Positions 17,109 to 27,265 of a stretch of DNA of 64,000 nucleotides are shown in pieces. Below the pieces are notes generated by a model, which did not search any database, was not told where the DNA came from, and saw only the letters and a list, made by a program, of their open reading frames with translations. The stretch comes from Verrucomicrobiota bacterium (GTDB lineage: Bacteria; Verrucomicrobiota; Verrucomicrobiia; Verrucomicrobiales; Verrucomicrobiaceae), in assembly GCA_017301975.1 (NCBI GenBank), contig JAFLEI010000001.1:186001-250000 (forward strand), in the 5' to 3' direction. How positions within the stretch are numbered: position 1 is the stretch's first letter; each line of letters begins with the position of its first letter. A program made the translations under genes and the position numbers.

Positions 17109-19238
17109 TCAAAATTTCAAGCTGCCGCCGACGTAGAAGTTGCGACCATAGGCGGGGATGATGCCGCTGCTGTTGACGAGGGAGTAGTAGTGCTTGTCGA
17201 AGACGTTGTTGAGGCCGGCCATGACGGAGAAGTTTTTACCGAGAGGGACTTCGGCGGTGAGATCCCAGGTGGTGTAGGCGGGAATGTCGAAACGGCCGTC
17301 GGCATTGTCGGTGCCGTTGTGGCGGGCCATCAAGGTGCCGAGGAAGGCGACCTTCAGGCCGCTCTTGCGTTTGTAGATGGCACCGGTGCGGATGATGTAG
17401 GGAGGTGCGTACTGCGGGGTGCCGCCGTTGTTCACGCCGCCGGAGAGACGGGCTTCGAGCACGGAGATGTTGCCGTAGAGATTGAGGGCGCCGAGGCGCT
17501 CGCCGCGATGAGTGCCGTTGAGGGCATCGAGGCCGCCGATGACATCAAACTGAGCGGCACCTTCCCAGCCGTAGTTGATGCTGCGGCCGACGCTCTGGAT
17601 GTTCACGCCGGCGGTGCCGAGCTTGTCATCGAGATCAACGAGGAAGAAGGAGGTATCATAGGCGAACCAGGGCTTGGGATTGCCACGGAGGCCGAGTTCA
17701 TAGCTCCAGCCCTGAGATGGGGCGACATCGCTGGCCGTACCACCTGCGGCGGGGATGAGCGACTGGCCGAAGGTGGTGGCACGGTAGCTCTGGGAGACGT
17801 TGGCGTAAACGGCGGTCTGGTTACCGAGATCGTAGGAGAGACCAAGGCCGAAGAGCGGCTGCTTGTCGAACTTGCTTGAATCCCGCTGTGTGGTGACGAC
17901 GCCGATGTTTCTGACGGTGATGTCTTGATTGATCATCTCCATGCGGAAGCCGGGGGTGATGGTGAGGCGGCCGAAGGTGAACTTGTTTTCCAGGAAAACG
18001 GAGCCGTAGATGACATCACGGGCGGCGAGGGTGTTGACGGTGCCGATGTCGTCTGTCGGGTAGGCTCCGGTGGCATCCTTGCGCGGGGAGTGGCACATGT
18101 AGAACTGCATGCCTGCGGCGAGGGAATGATCGCCGCCCCAGAGCTCGTAGTCGTGGCGGATGCGGGGCTCGATACCCCAGTTGTAGAACTGCTGGTGCTG
18201 AATGGCGGTGGTGGGACCGGTGACGGTGCCAAAGCTGCCAGCCTGACGGTTGCTCCAGCGGTCATAGGCACCAGCCCAGGTTTTCACACTGAGCTCGGTC
18301 TTGCTGGAAAACTTGTGCTGGAGCTCTGCGCTGGCGACGACGCGGCTCAGGTGGAAGCGGTCAGTGAGGCGCACGGTTTGATTGCGGTCGGCATTGTAGG
18401 CCGTGGCGGTGAGTCCACCGGGTTCGCCATGGCGGTCAGAGCCGGCATCGATGGAAAAAATCCAGCGTGTATCGGTGGAGTGCTGGTAGATGAGCTTCAG
18501 GCGGCCGCCATCGACGTTGAAGTCGCTGTTTGCGCTGCGGAAACCGGTGCCAGAGCGGTGGTTGAACCAGCCGTACCAGCTCCATTTGCCAGCGCTGCCG
18601 TCGATGGAGGTGAAGGTGGAGTAGAGGTCATTGCTGCCGAAGATGTGCTTGGTCTGCATGCCAAAGAGGCGATCCGTGCGCGGCATGGATGAGACGTAGT
18701 TCATGGCACCGGCCGGCTGCGGGCCATAGAGCAGGGAGGCGCCACCACGGACGAAGTCGATGCGCTGGGTGGACTCCAGCGGCGGTGTCCAGTAGGACTC
18801 GGGATAGCCTTGAGGATCTGCGGCGATGGGGATGCCATCCTGCAGCATCATGAAATACTGGGCGCGGTCTGGAGAGCCGATCCCGCGATAGCCAAGGCTG
18901 ACCAGAGGGGTGCTTTCTTCGGCAGTGATCAGGCCGGGCGTCATGGCAAAGGCCTGGCTGTAGTTGTTGGCCTGTACCTGAGGGAGCGACTGGATGTTCA
19001 AGGAACTCGCTTTTTTGCCAGCGTAGATCTTGGTGCCTTCGACTGGAGGAAGGTATGGGATGATGACCTGCGGCTCAGGCTCGGCTTCTGCGGTGATGGT
19101 GATTTCAGGGAGCTGCTCTGCGATTTGTCTGGCAGTCTGGGAACGGCTATGAGACGCCAGTGCAAGGAACAGGATGGCGGAAGCGGCGATGATCGGTCCG
19201 GAGGAAAGGCGGATGAGAGGAGCGAAAGTCGATGGCAT
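17109..19238 (-). CDS. TonB-dependent outer-membrane receptor (FecA/ferric-citrate-like)
   Basis: The product from the ATG at 19238 is a 709-residue receptor. It has a signal peptide, a short TonB-box-like LPEITITAE stretch, a plug domain (roughly residues 70-180, with YFMMLQDGIPIAADPQGYP and the GGASLLYGPQPAG block) and a 22-strand barrel ending in GRNFYVGGSLKF with terminal Phe. The plug sequence is closest in style to FecA-type receptors that take up ferric chelates, but ligand prediction from sequence is unreliable. A 7-1-7 inverted repeat lies 78 bp before the start and an intrinsic terminator follows, so the gene is probably its own transcript. The longer frame to 19337 would read through the operator. 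Confidence 0.93.
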   Translation of the reverse strand: MPSTFAPLIRLSSGPIIAASAILFLALASHSRSQTARQIAEQLPEITITAEAEPEPQVIIPYLPPVEGTKIYAGKKASSLNIQSLPQVQANNYSQAFAMTPGLITAEESTPLVSLGYRGIGSPDRAQYFMMLQDGIPIAADPQGYPESYWTPPLESTQRIDFVRGGASLLYGPQPAGAMNYVSSMPRTDRLFGMQTKHIFGSNDLYSTFTSIDGSAGKWSWYGWFNHRSGTGFRSANSDFNVDGGRLKLIYQHSTDTRWIFSIDAGSDRHGEPGGLTATAYNADRNQTVRLTDRFHLSRVVASAELQHKFSSKTELSVKTWAGAYDRWSNRQAGSFGTVTGPTTAIQHQQFYNWGIEPRIRHDYELWGGDHSLAAGMQFYMCHSPRKDATGAYPTDDIGTVNTLAARDVIYGSVFLENKFTFGRLTITPGFRMEMINQDITVRNIGVVTTQRDSSKFDKQPLFGLGLSYDLGNQTAVYANVSQSYRATTFGQSLIPAAGGTASDVAPSQGWSYELGLRGNPKPWFAYDTSFFLVDLDDKLGTAGVNIQSVGRSINYGWEGAAQFDVIGGLDALNGTHRGERLGALNLYGNISVLEARLSGGVNNGGTPQYAPPYIIRTGAIYKRKSGLKVAFLGTLMARHNGTDNADGRFDIPAYTTWDLTAEVPLGKNFSVMAGLNNVFDKHYYSLVNSSGIIPAYGRNFYVGGSLKF

Positions 19239-19315
19239 GAGAGTGATGATACTGAGATTCCGTCGCAAAGAAGGGTGGGATACTGAGCGGAATCCATTAA
19301 CGCTCAAGCTCTTTC

Positions 19316-19330
19316 TGCGATAGAGTCTCA
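19316..19330. promoter_or_regulatory. Fur-box-like 7-1-7 inverted repeat (site 1)
   Basis: TGCGATAGAGTCTCA is an imperfect 7-1-7 inverted repeat, 78 bp before the TonB receptor gene starting at 19238. It matches site 2 at 13 of 15 positions and has the TGxGA...TCxCA ends of classical Fur boxes (TGAGAATnATTCTCA type). Regulation by Fur is inference. Confidence 0.6.
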
Positions 19331-19392
19331 GTTGCAATTTTATGAGACTTTCTTGTGCTTCAGCATCTTACATGACGCCGCGGGGCAGGATG

Positions 19393-20592
19393 TCAGGGCT
19401 TTGAGAAGCGGTTCCAAGCCAGGGCAAAACCGGTCCAAACCAGGAGGATGGTGCTGATGGTGCAGAGGGCGGCAACGGTTTGGCCGATGAAGCCAAACAG
19501 CTCGCCGGTGTGGAGAAAGCGGGCGTACATCCGGAGGCGGCGGCCGAGGCTTTGCTGTTGCAGATCGTCCGGGCTGGGAAGCACTTTGCCCTGGGCCACA
19601 TCGAGGTTCAGCATGGTGCGCAGTTGCACCTGCCCGCGGCCGCCACGGTCCACCATGAGGGGGAAGGGGGCACCCGGCTTCTGGGGCATGCGCAGGCTCA
19701 TGCTGGCCCAGTCGGGGATCCGCTGGCGTGCCTGAGCCAGGAGAGGTTCGAGTCCGGCGAGGGAAGGGGGAGGGGCAGCGGGGCCGCTTTCACGGGAATC
19801 GCGCCGGCCGGGGCCTTCCGGGCGCCCCATGCCGCCGGAGCCACTAGGGCCAGCTTCGCGTTTGCCTTCTGCGACCGGGCGCTCGCGGGGTGGGGGTGGC
19901 TCGCTGCCGGTGAGGGTGAAGAGCAGATTGTTCGCCCAGCCATAGGACATGATGAGGCCGGTTAGGATGATGCAGAGCAGCTGGAGAGCGCTCCAGAAGC
20001 CGAAGACGTTGTGCCAGTTCCAGTTTCGCGCGCGGTCTCTGAGGCCGGGATTGAAAAGGATGACAGCGCGGACATTGGCCCAGCGCCAGTGGCGGGGCCA
20101 CCAGAGGTAGATGCCGGAGAGAAGGAGCAGGCTGAAGATGAGGCAGCCGATTCCGGTGATGGCTTTTCCGACTTCTTTGGGAAGGCCGGTACCGGTGAGG
20201 AAGCGGTGCCACTCGGTGGCTGCGTGGAAGAAGTCGCGCCAGGCGCGATGGCCCTCGCCGAGGAACTCGCCGGTGTAAGGATTGGCGAAAAAGACGCCCT
20301 CTTTGCCGAGGGAAAGTGTGACCGGCATGGCCGGGTCTGCCTTCCAGGTGATGCCGCTGGGATTTAAATCGGGCTTCGTTTCGTGAACTTTGGCCAGCAG
20401 TGTGTCGATGTCGAGATGTGGGGCACCTGCGGCAGGCGGGGAGACGCGCAGGTCTCGATTGGCCCAGTCGATGAGCTGGGCCTCATAGGAAATGATGAGG
20501 CCGGTGACGGCCATGGATAGAATGACCACACCGGCGACAAGGCCTGCGATGAGATGGCCCCAGAAAATGAGGCGATGAAAGGTTGGCTTCAC
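19393..20592 (-). CDS. PepSY-associated transmembrane protein (PiuB-like)
   Basis: An inner-membrane protein of about 399 residues of the PepSY_TM family, found with siderophore receptors and proposed to act in periplasmic iron reduction or uptake. It begins MKPTFHRLIFWGHLIAG and has four main hydrophobic segments, including GLVAGVVILSMAVTGLII, ITGIGCLIFSLLLLSGIYLWWPR, FGFWSALQLLCIILTGLIMSY and a C-terminal one, with periplasmic PepSY regions between. A Pro/Gly/Arg-rich low-complexity loop (about residues 235-270) is unusual. I place the start at the GTG at 20592, two bases after the upstream gene's stop; another GTG at 20610 would overlap that gene. It is the third gene of the operon receptor - PiuC - PepSY. 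Confidence 0.87.
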   Translation of the reverse strand: MKPTFHRLIFWGHLIAGLVAGVVILSMAVTGLIISYEAQLIDWANRDLRVSPPAAGAPHLDIDTLLAKVHETKPDLNPSGITWKADPAMPVTLSLGKEGVFFANPYTGEFLGEGHRAWRDFFHAATEWHRFLTGTGLPKEVGKAITGIGCLIFSLLLLSGIYLWWPRHWRWANVRAVILFNPGLRDRARNWNWHNVFGFWSALQLLCIILTGLIMSYGWANNLLFTLTGSEPPPPRERPVAEGKREAGPSGSGGMGRPEGPGRRDSRESGPAAPPPSLAGLEPLLAQARQRIPDWASMSLRMPQKPGAPFPLMVDRGGRGQVQLRTMLNLDVAQGKVLPSPDDLQQQSLGRRLRMYARFLHTGELFGFIGQTVAALCTISTILLVWTGFALAWNRFSKP

Positions 20593-20594
20593 GA

Positions 20595-21287
20595 TTACAT
20601 TTCCGCCCACTGGCGCAGTAGATTATGGTAGACACCGGTGAGCTGCACGCCGGTCTGTTCGGCTACGGGGTTGTTTTTGAGATCGCGGCCCAAGCGCTGG
20701 ATGGCAAGATCGAGATCAAACAGGAGCGACCGCTGGCCGTTGTCGCGGATCATGCTTTGCAGCCAGAAGAAGGAGCAGATGCGGGCCCCACGCGTCACCG
20801 GAGTGACGTGGTGCAGGCTGGTGGAGGGATAGAGGACCATGTGGCCGGGGGGGAGCTTCACACGCTGCACGCCGTAGGTGTCCTCGATGCAAAGCTCCCC
20901 GCCATCATACTCCTCCGGACCGGCGAAGAACAGCGTGGCGCTGAGGTCTGTGCGGATGCGGATGGGCATGGAGGGGTGCTGACGGATGGCATTGTCCACA
21001 TGCGTGCCGAAGGACTGGCCGCCGGAGTAGCGGTTGAACAGCGGCGGGAAAATCCGCTGAGGCAGGGCTGCGGCGTGGAACAGGGGATTTTTTGACAGGG
21101 CGGCGAGGATCATTTCACCGAGTTCACGCGCGGCAGGGCTGTCCTCAGGGAGCTGCATGTTATCCTTGGCCCTGGCGGATTGGTAGCCCGCGGTGCCTTT
21201 GCCGTCCACCCATTCGGTGGAGTCCAAGAGCTGGCGGGCATGAGCAACCTGCTCAGGGGTGAGAACGTCGGGAATTGCGATGAGCAT
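20595..21287 (-). CDS. piuC: PKHD-type Fe(II)/2-oxoglutarate hydroxylase (PiuC/YbiX)
   Basis: The 230-residue product matches the PKHD-type hydroxylase family, iron(II)- and 2-oxoglutarate-dependent enzymes commonly encoded after siderophore receptors. The metal ligands are visible: H96 and D98 (GTHVDNA) and H159 in [11 protein letters not shown], with R169 as the likely 2-oxoglutarate contact. Length and the N-terminal [10 protein letters not shown] are typical. The substrate is unknown for the family; a role in siderophore handling is inferred from context. It begins 20 bp after the stop of the receptor gene, with the PepSY gene directly after it. Confidence 0.93.
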
Positions 21288-21307
21288 GATGAGCGGGTAA
21301 AAAAGGA

Positions 21308-23572
21308 TTAGAACTTGATGCTGGCGGTCAGGGCGGCGGAACGGCCTGGACCGGGGACGAACTGGCCGCCGCCGACGCTGCCGACGTAGCGTTCGTTGGC
21401 GAGATTGTAGATGTTCAGGCGGAGGCTGACCTTCTCGGAGAACTTGTAGCTGACCATGGCATCCATGGTCCAGTAGCCGGGAGCGGTGCGGGAACTTGCG
21501 GAGGAGTCGTTGCTGGTACGCTCGCCCATATACTGGGCGCCGAAGCCGACCTGCGCTTTTTCCAGAAGGTTGTAGGTGGTCCAGAGGTTGAAGGTCTGGG
21601 GTGGGGCATTCGACAAGGACTGACCGACTGCAGCCGCAGTGGTGGAGGCTTTGGTCTCGCTTTCCATGATGGCGTAGCCTGCGAAGACCTGCCAGTTCTT
21701 GGTGATGCTGCCGGTCATGCTGAATTCGATGCCCTGGACAAGCTGATCACCTCCCAGCGTGGTGATGCCGGAGGCATCGGTGGTGCGGGCGTTGGTTTTC
21801 TCCGAGCGGAAGAGGGCGGCCGTCAGCGAGAGGCGCTCCTTGAGGACATCCCACTTGGTGCCGAGCTCGTAGGTGCAGGTATGTTCGGGGTCCAGTGTGG
21901 ATGTGGCGGCGGTGAGACCCAAACCCGCGCCGGAAGCGCCGTCGATGGTAGGATTGAAGGAGGTGCCGTAGCCGAAGTAGATGCTGCCCTGCTTTACGGG
22001 CTTGTAGATCAGCGCAAGCTTGTAGCTGAAGAGGTCATCAGCGTTGGCGTAGCCGGGTGCGTTGCCGGGCAGGCTTACGGTGGCGTACATGTGATCATAG
22101 CGGAGACCGCCGCTGAACTCCCAGTGTTTGCCGAGCTTCATGGTGTCAAACACGTAGGCCGAGCAGGTGTAGAGATAAGCCTCTGTCGGGGCAGGAAGGC
22201 CAGGGTACATGCTGGTGATGTCCTGTGCGTTGGTCCCCGGGGCAGCGCTGGGAGGGATGTTGATGCCGGGATTGTACAAATCCGTGACCGAGGCAATGCC
22301 GGCGACGTTGGCGTTTTGCTGATGCTCAAGATAAAACTCCATACCGGTGACCAGCGCGTGCTTGATCGGACCGGTGGAGAAATCAGCAACGAGGTTGGTC
22401 TGGTTGCCAAACATCTCGGTGAACTGCTGGCGGCGCTGCAACTGGCGGTTCAGGACGGTGGTGTATTGGTTGCCAGCGGTCACCGAATCGACATCGCGCA
22501 GACGTGGTGCGGTGCTCACCGAATCACGATGGCTGCGGGAGTAGCGTGTGATGTTGCGGACCCGCGCGTGTTCCGAAAAGTCGTGCTCAAAGATGGCCGT
22601 GAAGTGGTCTGTCTGGATTTTTTCATAGTCCACGCCCGGCAGTCCGTAGAAGGTGTTGAAGCTCACCCCCGGCGGTGGCTGGTTCTGGTAGGCGGCGAGG
22701 GCGGCGCCTGAGCCGCTGAAGGTACCGTTGTTGGGGATCCAAGGCAGGCCGTAGTCGGGGATGTTGCTTTCCTCCAGCCGCTGGTAATTCAGCATGAAGC
22801 GTGTGTCTGTGCCAAGACCAGCGCCCAGCGATGCGGCGATGCCGTAGCGCTCCGAAGAGACATTGTCGCGTCCGGGGGTGTCGGCGTTATGATACATGGT
22901 GTTGAGGCGGAAAGCCGTGTGCTCGGAGAGCTTCTGGTTCACGTCCACGGTTCCACGGTAGAGATTGCTGGTGCCGCCGCTGACCGTGGTAAGAACGGAG
23001 TCCGTCAGATTGGCCATCTTGCTGACGGTGTTGATGGAGCCGCCGGTGGAGCCACGGCCGACGGTGGAGGAGGAGGGGCCTTTGGTGATTTCAACCTGTT
23101 CCGTGTTGAAGGGGTCGCGGTTGTAGTTGGCGTAGTCACGCACGCCGTCGAGGTAGATGTCACTGCGGGCGCTGAAGCCGCGGATGGAGAGGTTGTCTCC
23201 GGACACCGCGCCGCCTTCTCCGGCCTGCATGGAAATGCCGGGTGTGTTTTTCAGGACGTCGCGGAGGCTGAAAGCGCCGCGGTCTTCAATGACCGCCTTG
23301 GGAATGACCGTGATGGTCTGGGGGATGTCACGCAGCGGTTCGGTGTACTTGGGGGACTGAAGGCGCTGGGGGTTGTACACCGATCCGGTCGCTTCGATGA
23401 CGACTTCGGGCATTTCGGTGGGAATCTCTTCGAGCTGGGGCTTGAGCTTGCTGGGGGCGGCGGTTTCGGCGCTCAGACTGCCAGCGGCACACAGCAAGGA
23501 GGTGACCGAGAGAGTTTTGGGGCTTGTCTTGCGAGTAATGCGGCGGAGGCGGGAGGCGAGTTCGTGGGGCAT
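21308..23572 (-). CDS. TonB-dependent siderophore receptor (Fiu/CirA-like)
   Basis: The ATG at 23572 gives 754 residues: a long signal peptide ending in [11 protein letters not shown], a TonB-box region ([10 protein letters not shown]), a plug domain at about residues 70-190 ([51 protein letters not shown]) and a barrel ending in [12 protein letters not shown]. The [11 protein letters not shown] start of the plug is diagnostic of the TonB-siderophore subfamily (catecholate receptors such as Fiu). It heads the operon with piuC and the PepSY gene, as Fiu does with YbiX, supporting catecholate siderophore uptake. A Fur-box-like repeat lies about 60 bp upstream. The next gene upstream is a collapsed relative. 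Confidence 0.95.
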
Positions 23573-23602
23573 AAAAGTCTGATAAACGAAAGGCTGGCTA
23601 AT

Positions 23603-23627
23603 GCTAATGAGATTCGATTTCATTAGC
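23603..23627. repeat. Perfect 8-bp inverted repeat in the receptor leader
   Basis: GCTAATGA (23603-23610) and TCATTAGC (23620-23627) form a perfect inverted repeat around nine bases, 31-55 bp before the receptor start at 23572. On the message it could form a hairpin in the leader; the sequence also weakly resembles the neighbouring Fur-box-like site. Its role is unknown. Confidence 0.5.
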
Positions 23628-23631
23628 TAGT

Positions 23632-23646
23632 TGCGATTAAGTCTCA
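23632..23646. promoter_or_regulatory. Fur-box-like 7-1-7 inverted repeat (site 2)
   Basis: TGCGATTAAGTCTCA, flanked by T and A to give a 17-base palindrome-like TTG...CAA, lies 60 bp before the siderophore receptor gene. It matches site 1 at 13 of 15 positions and has the same half-sites as site 3. Confidence 0.62.
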
Positions 23647-23726
23647 ATTTCAAGCACAGTCAAACACGGAAACTAGAAACTTTTTGCTCAAAACATGCGG
23701 TCTTTTGTGGTTCCTCAGAGACTGAA

Positions 23727-23769
23727 AATGGGTCTTGAAAACGCCAGCCCGGCGATCCCAAGACCCATT
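23727..23769 (-). terminator. Terminator after the collapsed receptor gene
   Basis: An 11-bp perfect stem (AATGGGTCTTG at 23727-23737 with CAAGACCCATT at 23759-23769) encloses a 21-base loop. On the reverse strand it is followed by TTTTC. It lies 24 bp after the stop of the receptor remnant at 23794, where the terminator of a full-length receptor gene would be expected. Confidence 0.75.
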
Positions 23770-23793
23770 AACCCCTCAGCCCAACCAACAGGC

Positions 23794-23970
23794 TCAGAAT
23801 GTGATGGTGGCAGTCAACGCTGCATAGCGTCCCACGCCCGGGGTGGCGCTGGTGGGCGGGGCGGGGGGGGCATTTTGTGCAGCCAGACTTCCGGCTGCGC
23901 ACAGGAGAGTCGTGACTGAAAGGACTTCTGTGCCCGGTTTGCGAATGGATCGGAGGGACTTCTTGGACAT
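23794..23970 (-). pseudogene. Collapsed TonB-dependent receptor: signal peptide joined to last beta strand
   Basis: The 58-codon frame begins MSKKSLRSIRK and has a signal peptide ([16 protein letters not shown]) almost identical to that of the receptor at 21308-23572 ([16 protein letters not shown]). After about 13 residues it ends in GRYAALTATITF, the counterpart of that receptor's final strand [12 protein letters not shown] with terminal Phe. Plug and barrel are missing and the junction is in frame. It therefore looks like an internal deletion of about 2.1 kb in a paralogous receptor gene, with the original terminator still present. The junction region contains a run of eight C on the coding strand. 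It could be expressed as a small exported peptide, but a decaying gene is more likely. Confidence 0.72.
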
Positions 23971-24078
23971 GGGAGGAGTGTGATGGTTTTCGGATTTTTC
24001 TTCGGCTGCCCCCGAGTACCGCAAAATCAGAAAAACCGTCAAACACTCCGCCAGGCAAAGCCGTGGCGTGGGCAGAAA

Positions 24079-25185
24079 TCACCCGGCCATGGACTGCTCT
24101 GAACGCTTTTTGATCCGTTCTGCCGCGTGGCTAAGCGATTCCAGAACCTCGATGAGCCGGTCCATTTTCTGCAAACCCAGATCCAGCGGGCCTCGGCGCC
24201 GCAGCTCCGACGACGCCATGTCCAGCGCTTCAAGGCCCCCCTGATAAAGGTCCTGTTCTTTTGTCAGCAAGGGGGATCCCTGGCCGGGATCGAGCACATC
24301 GAGCAAAAACTCCGCCATGAAATGGGGCTGATAAGCCAGGAGCAGGCTGCAGCCATAGCGGAACAATTCGCGGCGCAACACGCGGAAATGCTCGGGCATG
24401 CCCTGGCTTTCCCATTTGGCGGTGAGGTGCATGGCCTCGTCCACTTTGTCCGTAGCCTGAATGATCCAGTCATCCGCGCGGCTGGTGTCCACCGGGGGTG
24501 ATTCCAGCAGCATGGCCACGGCACGGCAGAAGATGTGGCGCGCCTTCAATCCGATTTCGGCGGAGTGCAGGGTCCGATGTTCGCTGGGCTGGCACAAAAG
24601 CAGTGTCTCACCAACCAACTGCATGGCGTCCAGCATTTTGGGGGGGGAAACTTCCAGCAGCAGGGCAGCGCGGTTGAGCAGAAGCGTTGGCAGAAGTTCC
24701 GTGTTGACGGGGAGACTGGCCGCCACGCTCTCCGCAATCACGGTTTTGCCCTGATCCAGCGACAGCAGGGCGGCGTGGAGGCTTTCCGGTGTCCCTTCTG
24801 CGCGCAGTGCCAGGGAGCGGTTCATCCAAGCCAGGGCCAGCCGGCCGCGATACTGGGCGTCCTCGTCCAGCGGCAGTTTTTGCAGATGAAAAATGGCCTG
24901 GTCGAAACTGTGCACCGCTGCGGTCAGTTGAGCCGGGTTTCCAAGGCGAGTGAGCGCGTCCCCCCGGTTCATCCAGCAGGCAGTGAGCAGCCAGCGAAAC
25001 CAGGAACTTTCCTCAAACGGCAGCGTGCGACGTATCTCCAGCGCCTGCTCAAAGCAGTGGAGAGCTTCCGACAGAGCGGAGGGATTGTTGGCGGAAAGCA
25101 GGGCGATGCCGCGCTTCATCCAGACTTTGGCCACTGCGTTGCGGTCTTCTGGGGAATCCTCGTTGGTGACTGGGGCGGACGGCAT
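24079..25185 (-). CDS. TPR-like helical-repeat protein of unknown function
   Basis: The 368-residue protein has no signal peptide and is almost wholly helical. The first 170 residues contain TPR-like units (VWMKRGIALLSANN, ALHCFEQALEIRRTLP, CWMNRGDALTRLGN, AVHSFDQAIFHLQKLP, AWMNRSLALRAEGT) spaced 50-60 residues apart, each beginning with an A/CWMxR segment, so this looks like a degenerate repeat family. The C-terminal half is helical without recognisable motifs. I do not recognise a named family. It is divergent from tonB-exbB-exbD, with site 3 of the Fur-box-like repeats 58 bp before its start, so it is probably iron-regulated. It also has a run of eight C (24640-24647). Confidence 0.8.
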   Translation of the reverse strand: MPSAPVTNEDSPEDRNAVAKVWMKRGIALLSANNPSALSEALHCFEQALEIRRTLPFEESSWFRWLLTACWMNRGDALTRLGNPAQLTAAVHSFDQAIFHLQKLPLDEDAQYRGRLALAWMNRSLALRAEGTPESLHAALLSLDQGKTVIAESVAASLPVNTELLPTLLLNRAALLLEVSPPKMLDAMQLVGETLLLCQPSEHRTLHSAEIGLKARHIFCRAVAMLLESPPVDTSRADDWIIQATDKVDEAMHLTAKWESQGMPEHFRVLRRELFRYGCSLLLAYQPHFMAEFLLDVLDPGQGSPLLTKEQDLYQGGLEALDMASSELRRRGPLDLGLQKMDRLIEVLESLSHAAERIKKRSEQSMAG

Positions 25186-25242
25186 TCGGCAAGGGTTTGG
25201 TGAGCAATTGAGGCATTATTAACAGCAAGATGTGAACAATGA

Positions 25243-25257
25243 TGCGACTGAGTCGCA
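25243..25257. promoter_or_regulatory. Fur-box-like perfect 7-1-7 inverted repeat (site 3)
   Basis: TGCGACT-G-AGTCGCA is a perfect 7-1-7 inverted repeat in the 131-bp divergent gap between the TPR-like gene (start 25185) and tonB (start 25317). A consensus TTGACA lies just after it (25266-25271) as a possible -35 element of the tonB operon. The site could control both directions. Confidence 0.65.
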
Positions 25258-25316
25258 ATTGCAAGTTGACACGCTAATCTTGCGTTTCATCCTCCACTCC
25301 TACCCTGCCTTGTGCA

Positions 25317-26153
25317 ATGACCTCCTCAATGCTAAACCCCCTGCCCGCCATGGGCTACGACCATCCCAAGCCAAGATCCTCTGCTGCTGCCGTTTCAGCA
25401 ACTTCGGTGGTGCGTCGTGGCAGCAGTCTTGCCCGGGTGATTATTACGCTTTCATGGCTCGTAGGCATCACGGGGAGCTTTTTGACGGTGGGGGTCATCG
25501 GCATGTTCGCCGCCGATTTGCCGCCGATTCACCTGAAAACGCTGGAAGACCTCGATGAATCCGCTGAGCTGCCGATGGTGGAAACCTCCATGGCCGAGCT
25601 GCTGGCGATGGATGCGAGTGCCGACCAGCCCGCCGAGACGGAGCCGGTGCTGCCGCCGGAAATTTCCGAGGTCATCGAGACGCCGCCGGAAAATCTGGAT
25701 CTGCCGGAGATCGCGGAGGCGATGACAATGGAGGACATTTTTGCAATTCCCACCGCTCCGAAGATCGAGGATGCCTTGCGTCCCATCGACCCCGTGAAAC
25801 GTCAGCCCCCCCCCTCGCCACCCCGTCCGCGCGTGGCCAGCAGTGGAGGCACACGGTCCAATACGAGCCAGGCTGGCACGGCAGGCGGCAGTGGCACCTC
25901 CGGCAGTGGCGGCAAAGGCAAATTTCCCCAGCCTTCTTATCCTGACTTTGCCCGCAGTTCTGGCATGCAGGGCACCGTGCGTCTGAGCATCAGTGTGGGA
26001 CCTTCAGGGGCCGTCGAAGGAGTCAGTGTCATCGGCAGCACCGGGTTTAGTTCGTTGGATGAGTATGCTGCGTCCTGGGTGCGCCGGAACTGGCGCTGGC
26101 CTGCGGGCGCGCCGCACCGCTACACGCTGCCGCTCAAATTCCGTCTGAACTGA
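25317..26153 (+). CDS. tonB: Energy transducer TonB
   Basis: The 278-residue protein couples the inner-membrane proton gradient to outer-membrane receptors. One membrane helix lies at about residues 40-65 (VIITLSWLVGITGSFLTVGVIG), then an acidic, proline-containing periplasmic spacer with a PPPSPPRPR run and a Ser/Gly-rich linker, and the C-terminal TonB domain (residues ~205-278) with YPDFARSSGMQGTVRLSISV and the final WPAGAPHRYTLPLKF. The glycine/serine linker in place of a long Pro-Lys spacer is somewhat unusual. Nine C in a row encode the PPP (25806-25814). It heads tonB-exbB-exbD-coiled-coil gene, behind a Fur-box-like site. Confidence 0.9.
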   Translation: MTSSMLNPLPAMGYDHPKPRSSAAAVSATSVVRRGSSLARVIITLSWLVGITGSFLTVGVIGMFAADLPPIHLKTLEDLDESAELPMVETSMAELLAMDASADQPAETEPVLPPEISEVIETPPENLDLPEIAEAMTMEDIFAIPTAPKIEDALRPIDPVKRQPPPSPPRPRVASSGGTRSNTSQAGTAGGSGTSGSGGKGKFPQPSYPDFARSSGMQGTVRLSISVGPSGAVEGVSVIGSTGFSSLDEYAASWVRRNWRWPAGAPHRYTLPLKFRLN

Positions 26154-26187
26154 AACAGCTTCTCATCCGCCATCTTCGATTTTAATC

Positions 26188-26829
26188 ATGCCCATACTCG
26201 CCAACGCTGTCGTCGATCTCTTTCACAAAGGGGGACCCATCATGTATCCCATCGCAGTGGTCACGGTTGTGGCTGTCTGCATCTTTGTGGAGCGTGTGTT
26301 CTGGTGGCTGCGCTTTACCGCCAAGCGCTCCACCAAGCAGCTGGATGAAGTGTACGAAAAACTGGAGGCGGGAGACCTCGCGAAAGCCATCGCGATCTCT
26401 GCCGGCTCAGGTGATCCTGTGGTGCGCATGATTCATCACGGGCTCAATCACCGCCACACCAGCATGCAGGGCGCACTCGAAGTCTCCGCCGGGCAGGAAC
26501 TGCGCGATGCAGGCCGTTATTTGAGCGCGATGGACACGATCGTCACGCTCGCACCGCTGCTTGGGCTGCTGGGTACCGTCACCGGCATCATGGGCAGCTT
26601 CACCAGCATCGGTGGCAGCGAACTTGCGGTGGAAAAGGTCACGGGCGGCATTGGCGAGGCGCTCATCGCCACGGCAGCCGGCCTCGGCATCGCCATCGGC
26701 ACGCTGGTGCCGATGAACTACTTCCATGCACGCCTTGCCGCTCTGAAGTTTGACCTCGAAGCCGCAGCCAACAACGTGCTGATTCTTGCTGTGCAGCACG
26801 GATTTGACAAAGCCACTCCGAAGGCCTGA
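26188..26829 (+). CDS. exbB: ExbB/MotA/TolQ proton-channel family protein
   Basis: The 213-residue protein has three membrane segments: MYPIAVVTVVAVCIFVERVFWWL near the N-terminus, and two close to the end (LAPLLGLLGTVTGIMGSF and ALIATAAGLGIAIGTLVPM). The GLLGTVTGI and GEALIATAAGLGIAI motifs are hallmarks of the MotA/TolQ/ExbB family. With ExbD it forms the inner-membrane motor that drives TonB. It lies 34 bp after tonB and 7 bp before exbD, so the assignment to ExbB rather than TolQ rests on this neighbourhood and on the receptor genes nearby. Confidence 0.93.
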   Translation: MPILANAVVDLFHKGGPIMYPIAVVTVVAVCIFVERVFWWLRFTAKRSTKQLDEVYEKLEAGDLAKAIAISAGSGDPVVRMIHHGLNHRHTSMQGALEVSAGQELRDAGRYLSAMDTIVTLAPLLGLLGTVTGIMGSFTSIGGSELAVEKVTGGIGEALIATAAGLGIAIGTLVPMNYFHARLAALKFDLEAAANNVLILAVQHGFDKATPKA

Positions 26830-26836
26830 TCCCACC

Positions 26837-27265
26837 GTGAAACTACATTCGCCATTGCCCGAACGAAAGACGCGGCTGGAAATCATCCCGCTCATTGACG
26901 TGATGTTCTTCCTGCTGGCCTCCTTCATGATGGTCAGTCTCACGATGACCAAGCAGCAGACCATCAAGGTGAATCTGCCCGTGGCTTCGGCCACGCAGTC
27001 CGATTTCAAGCCGGACATGATCAACCTTGCGGTGAACGCCACCGGCGATGTATTTTACGACAAGTCGGCCATCACGCTGCCAGAGCTGGATCGAAAGCTC
27101 GCCGAACGTTATGGGAAAGATCCCGCCACCTCCGTGTACATCAGTGCCGATGTGAACACACGCTATGCCGATCTCGTGAAAGCGCTGGATGCCGCCAAGC
27201 GGGCAGGCTTCACGAAGGTGGCCTTCAACGTCAAACCTGCGAATGCGGCCAAGCCTGCTCCCTGA
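26837..27265 (+). CDS. exbD: ExbD/TolR biopolymer transport protein
   Basis: The GTG at 26837, 7 bp after the exbB stop, starts a 142-residue protein beginning with the charged segment and IIPLIDVMFFLLASFMMVSL, the single helix with the conserved proton-carrying aspartate. The periplasmic domain follows (INLAVNATGDVFYDKSAITLPEL and VYISADVNTRYADLVKALDAAK). An in-frame ATG at 26786 lies inside exbB and is not needed. It completes the TonB motor set with the two upstream genes. Confidence 0.93.
   Translation: MKLHSPLPERKTRLEIIPLIDVMFFLLASFMMVSLTMTKQQTIKVNLPVASATQSDFKPDMINLAVNATGDVFYDKSAITLPELDRKLAERYGKDPATSVYISADVNTRYADLVKALDAAKRAGFTKVAFNVKPANAAKPAP

Follow-up and report, generated by a model that had tools for sequence, protein, structure and literature searches.

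Between positions 23,794 and 23,970 of the window (the whole stretch of 64,000 nucleotides of DNA analysed here, from a Prosthecobacter-like member of the Verrucomicrobiota) lies a reading frame of only 58 codons that looks like the two ends of a TonB-dependent receptor joined together. Is this frame a small gene in its own right, or is it what remains of a receptor gene? The original prediction had described it as a receptor signal peptide followed by the receptor's final strand, and had offered two outcomes, namely neutral decay or a small exported peptide acting on the Bam machinery.

Both ends of the frame match one receptor

The frame was found to lie on the minus strand, a correction to the original prediction, and runs from an ATG at 23970–23968 to a TGA at 23796–23794, with start, frame and stop intact. 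Its parts are as follows.

23794..23970, minus strand: remnant frame of receptor A, consisting of a signal peptide (residues ~1–32), a Pro-rich linker (33–40), the receptor's last 18 residues (41–58) and the stop TGA
23872..23970, minus strand: 5' end of receptor A that survived the deletion, coding for the signal peptide; identity to the N-termini of the intact G013, G011, and G051 receptors, 60–70%
23844..23860, minus strand: deletion junction region, codons ~37–42, GC-rich, placed by comparison of the window with both termini of intact receptor A
23797..23850, minus strand: retained 3' end of receptor A, the last beta strand, SATPGVGRYAALTATITF, placed by sequence match

The exact breakpoint is inferred, and fixing its position would need an undeleted sister strain.

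The 58 residues were searched in 37 genomes, that is, the window's own genome and 36 relatives. Within the genus, the signal peptide matched where long receptor frames begin in several genomes (E = 2.9e-10 for G013, 2.2e-8 for G011, and 4.4e-7 for G005). In G013 and G023, the long frame that begins with such a match also ends with a match to the last 18–19 residues. The nearest match to the window's N-terminus was receptor A of G051 (MAG UBA7681, Verrucomicrobiaceae), with 70% identity over 47 residues. The tail match, on whose significance the original prediction had made its claim depend, showed 84–89% identity in the syntenic G013 receptor (E = 0.0037 for a 19-residue query in a whole-genome search) and 79–83% in G023. 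Both ends of the remnant match both ends of the same orthologue (N-terminus 60–70% and C-terminus 73–89% identical) in a syntenic slot, so chance is effectively excluded, and the description of the frame as signal peptide plus final strand holds.

A Pfam search of the 58 residues gave no domain, neither the plug (PF07715) nor the barrel (PF00593), as expected for a remnant of such a short length. The tail ALTATITF has the terminal Phe and the alternating pattern of a final strand; its Gly position is not occupied by Gly, and the same is true of the intact receptors.

Intact receptor A occupies the same slot in four relatives

When related genomes were examined for a full-length receptor at the same place, as the original prediction had proposed, receptor A (767–785 aa) was present in exactly the same slot in G051, G013, G023, and G011, between the gene for a TPR protein and a second receptor gene (receptor B). 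The gene order in the latter three is TPR – receptor A – receptor B – PKHD – PepSY. Neighbours are conserved on both sides of the slot (TPR, receptor B, PKHD, PepSY, TonB), and genomes of Prosthecobacter and Brevifollis are among the named relatives that carry the TPR gene. Comparison of these 767–785 codons with the 58 of the window shows that the predicted loss of about 2.1 kb was right in size. These intact orthologues support the structural reading of the window frame, according to which a receptor gene would have undergone an in-frame internal deletion. Against TIGR01783 (TonB-dependent siderophore receptor), receptor A passed the cut-off. Its highest score was with the Fiu model (PRK09840), where it fell short of that model's own cut-off.

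A relocated full-length receptor elsewhere in the window genome was also considered and rejected. The only match to the G051 receptor A was receptor B (61%), and no second copy of receptor A was found in this genome, which is 96% complete, so that the absence is not absolute.

The genes adjoining the remnant in the window are the following.

24079..25185, minus strand: TPR protein, 368 residues, immediately upstream of the remnant; syntenic anchor
21308..23572, minus strand: receptor B, intact, of Fiu/TonB-siderophore type, 754 residues; paralogue of receptor A and 61% identical to the G051 receptor A
20595..21287, minus strand: PKHD-type Fe2+-dependent dioxygenase of the YbiX/PiuC family, downstream of receptor B

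Positions 17109–27265 of the window form an iron-uptake island comprising two receptors, the PKHD dioxygenase, a PepSY protein, and TonB and ExbB/ExbD-like genes. Downstream of the remnant come receptor B and then the dioxygenase and the PepSY protein, while the TonB and ExbB/ExbD-like genes are upstream and divergently transcribed. The longest open frame of receptor B includes an extension (23573–23623, MKSNLISIS...) that begins inside the Fur-box-like element described below. Since this extension has an in-frame stop in most relatives, the true start of receptor B is probably the ATG at 23572, and not 23623. In G011, receptor B (L018:3372–3710) is split over two frames near residues 108–121, reflecting either a frameshift or an assembly error.

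Receptor A has been lost through several different deletions

The slot was read in relatives carrying both the TPR gene and receptor B. Five further relatives have also lost this receptor, through at least three other deletions that differ in their breakpoints; 15, ~34 or ~235 C-terminal codons remain. In G012, G021, and G002, which appear to share one deletion, the cut begins at the end of the TPR gene and leaves the last ~15 codons of receptor A; the receptor stop is intact in G012 and mutated in G021, and the tail is eroded in G002. In G063 the cut is at the TPR stop, and the ~34 codons kept contain premature stops. In G057 it starts just after the TPR stop and ~235 codons are kept. Most of the short-tail remnants are decaying, having lost the stop codon or acquired premature stops. 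None of these other alleles has the signal peptide; the window allele, cut after the signal peptide, represents a fourth arrangement. No second small frame joining both ends was found among the 37 genomes searched or in the other species whose slot was read.

In a tree of the flanking proteins, intact and deleted loci were intermixed, with intact G051 grouping with deleted G063 (100%) and intact G013 with deleted G002 (91%). Because the single-gene trees conflict and are weakly supported, what is reported is a minimum of four deletion alleles and not a number of events along the tree. Receptor A was shown to be dispensable in the genus and to have been lost repeatedly. The allele of G012, G021, and G002 may derive from a window-like allele by a second cut.

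Some further features of these loci were observed. In G057 (L056:8100–8842), the ~235 C-terminal barrel codons form an open frame that follows immediately on the TPR gene; it has an ATG and lacks a signal peptide. In G012, G002, and G021 (L058, L060, and L055, TPR gene end), the last TPR codons are replaced by the shared deletion. On the tree, G002 falls with intact G013, yet it has its deletion in common with G012 and G021; this suggests either that species have exchanged the locus or that the tree is poorly resolved.

The deletions end before the regulatory region of receptor B

Three regulatory elements were assigned around the remnant.

24015..24043, minus strand: candidate promoter of the lost receptor A, TTGACG-17 nt-GGTACT; weak, from comparison by eye
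23727..23769, minus strand: terminator-like stem-loop followed by a T-rich tail, from folding and conservation; common to the intact receptor A loci and most deletion alleles
23605..23625, no strand assigned: Fur-box-like palindrome TAATGA-N9-TCATTA upstream of receptor B; 0 expected by chance, conserved in relatives

A simple consensus scan reported neither a promoter nor a terminator, so these two calls rest on conservation and folding. Ahead of the intact receptor A gene of G013, the candidate promoter is conserved in both position and sequence; in G011 it is conserved in part. The stem-loop had z = -3.7 compared with shuffled sequences, and its pairing is preserved through base changes in relatives, which bears out the intact terminator that had been predicted after the frame. 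The palindrome is at the start of the neighbouring iron-uptake unit.

No deletion extends as far as the receptor A stop codon; the Fur-box-like element is always spared, and the stem-loop usually is. The simplest reading would be that deletions reaching into the receptor B promoter were selected against. Alternatively, the retained 3' end might be useful as DNA and not as a peptide, its terminator insulating the Fur-controlled receptor B from transcription of the TPR gene. In keeping with such a role, no deletion allele reaches the terminator or the palindromic promoter region. However, G012 has lost part of the stem-loop and G002 has a degenerate copy, so that the element is not a strict requirement; moreover, insulation accounts for the end points of the deletions but not for the retained signal peptide. 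We regard insulation as possible though rather doubtful. It is compatible with the frame being a receptor remnant, and not opposed to it.

A recent deletion is favoured over constraint

The 20-codon core of the signal peptide showed 0 private amino-acid changes and 6 private synonymous codons in the window, and the 18-codon tail showed 2 of each. The penultimate tail residue is Thr in the window, compared with Lys in all the intact copies. Point mutation of the frame under neutrality was simulated, with indels not included. An intact frame with an unchanged core was retained at a frequency of 38% at 0.02 substitutions per site, 8% at 0.05, and below 1% at 0.1; neutral drift therefore requires a deletion younger than ~0.05 substitutions per site. 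Either the deletion would be recent on the window branch or the frame would be under constraint, and one genome cannot separate the two. A recent deletion is preferred, in view of the frequent losses of the gene, the other alleles without a signal peptide, and the penultimate Lys to Thr change.

Pairwise dN/dS of the retained ends was low (0.08 for the signal-peptide core against both G051 and G013). Since this value mostly represents divergence before the deletion, it was not counted as evidence of function. Purifying selection may be acting on the window frame, but there is no positive evidence for it.

An exported peptide and an assembly artefact are both improbable

Could the frame encode a functional small exported peptide? 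The signal peptide would then be cleaved, leaving ~28 residues in the periplasm, and the strand would compete for BamA/BamD or signal envelope stress. Signal peptide, frame and C-terminal aromatic residue are all intact, and the core is unchanged in amino acids. Such an activity is physically possible, given that a synthetic peptide of the OmpC final strand inhibited OMP assembly in vitro and blocked substrate binding by BamA (PMC10945584). Against this, the short two-ended frame is confined to one of the 37 genomes searched, the sister deletions have dropped the signal peptide, and the two private substitutions of the tail include the penultimate residue. In addition, AALTATITF, with Ala at the consensus Gly position, is an incomplete match to the beta-signal (PMC10945584). 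A conserved peptide gene should have its frame in more than one species under purifying selection, and no such case was seen among the genomes searched. We consider a functional peptide very improbable. It is likewise very improbable that a receptor gene cut to signal peptide and beta-signal has given rise to a natural exported peptide tuning OMP assembly or envelope-stress signalling.

An assembly collapse between two adjacent paralogous receptors might be imagined for a 95-contig draft genome at a locus where relatives carry two paralogues in tandem, but it is very improbable, as both joined ends resemble receptor A and not A plus B, the two receptors (only ~55–61% identical) are too different to collapse, receptor B and its promoter are complete, and five separate assemblies show deletions of a comparable but distinct kind.

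Origin and meaning of the remnant

The window frame is very probably a remnant of receptor A, a TonB-dependent siderophore receptor, produced by one internal deletion; it represents ordinary gene loss, not a novel type of peptide, and is most likely non-functional. As the intact orthologues in the same slot show, the receptor A gene stood between the TPR-protein gene and receptor B, and a single internal deletion of ~2.15 kb took out plug and barrel, with the frame kept by chance. The deletion would have joined codon ~39 to the 18th codon from the end. Selection for receptor B expression is presumably the reason why the deletions spare its Fur-box-like promoter region. The old promoter probably still drives transcription of the remnant, and cleavage of the signal peptide may yield an exported peptide of ~28 residues, which most likely has no function and can be expected to decay. 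Of the two outcomes originally offered, neutral decay is the one favoured, given that the genus has at least four distinct deletions of this receptor, that most other tails are decaying, and that no comparable small frame was seen in the genomes and slots read; the Bam-acting peptide gained support from no test.

The finding is a modest one. It provides a clean case in which one of two tandem siderophore receptors is repeatedly lost in a genus, by at least four deletion alleles, all of which leave intact the regulatory region of the receptor next to it. Caution is also called for, since a signal peptide on the remnant of an in-frame deletion can make it pass for the gene of a small secreted peptide. 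Should the peptide prove functional, it would represent a naturally occurring equivalent of the synthetic beta-signal peptides that inhibit Bam. In the literature on TonB-receptor pseudogenes and on TonB in Prosthecobacter, nothing was found on the window locus.

Comparison with known systems

In its retained ends, its synteny, its missing middle and the intact orthologues in relatives, the locus resembles an internal-deletion pseudogene of a TonB-dependent siderophore receptor (Fiu-like, TIGR01783); it differs in that the reading frame survived in the window, hence its look of a small gene. Receptor B, the YbiX-family dioxygenase, the PepSY protein and the divergent TonB/ExbB/ExbD-like genes recall the Fiu–YbiX and PiuA–PiuC pairs of receptor and PKHD protein. 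Unlike those pairs, a second receptor (A) was once present upstream here, and has been lost in the window and in other lineages. With respect to the beta-signal consensus (zeta x G x x [aromatic/hydrophobic] x [aromatic/hydrophobic], PMC10945584), the window tail is not a full match because of the Ala at the Gly position. Finally, the remnant shares with the OMP beta-signal peptides (OmpC final strand, PMC10945584) a C-terminal strand ending in Phe; those peptides, however, are synthetic inhibitors studied in vitro and not the product of a natural gene, and the window frame is not conserved.
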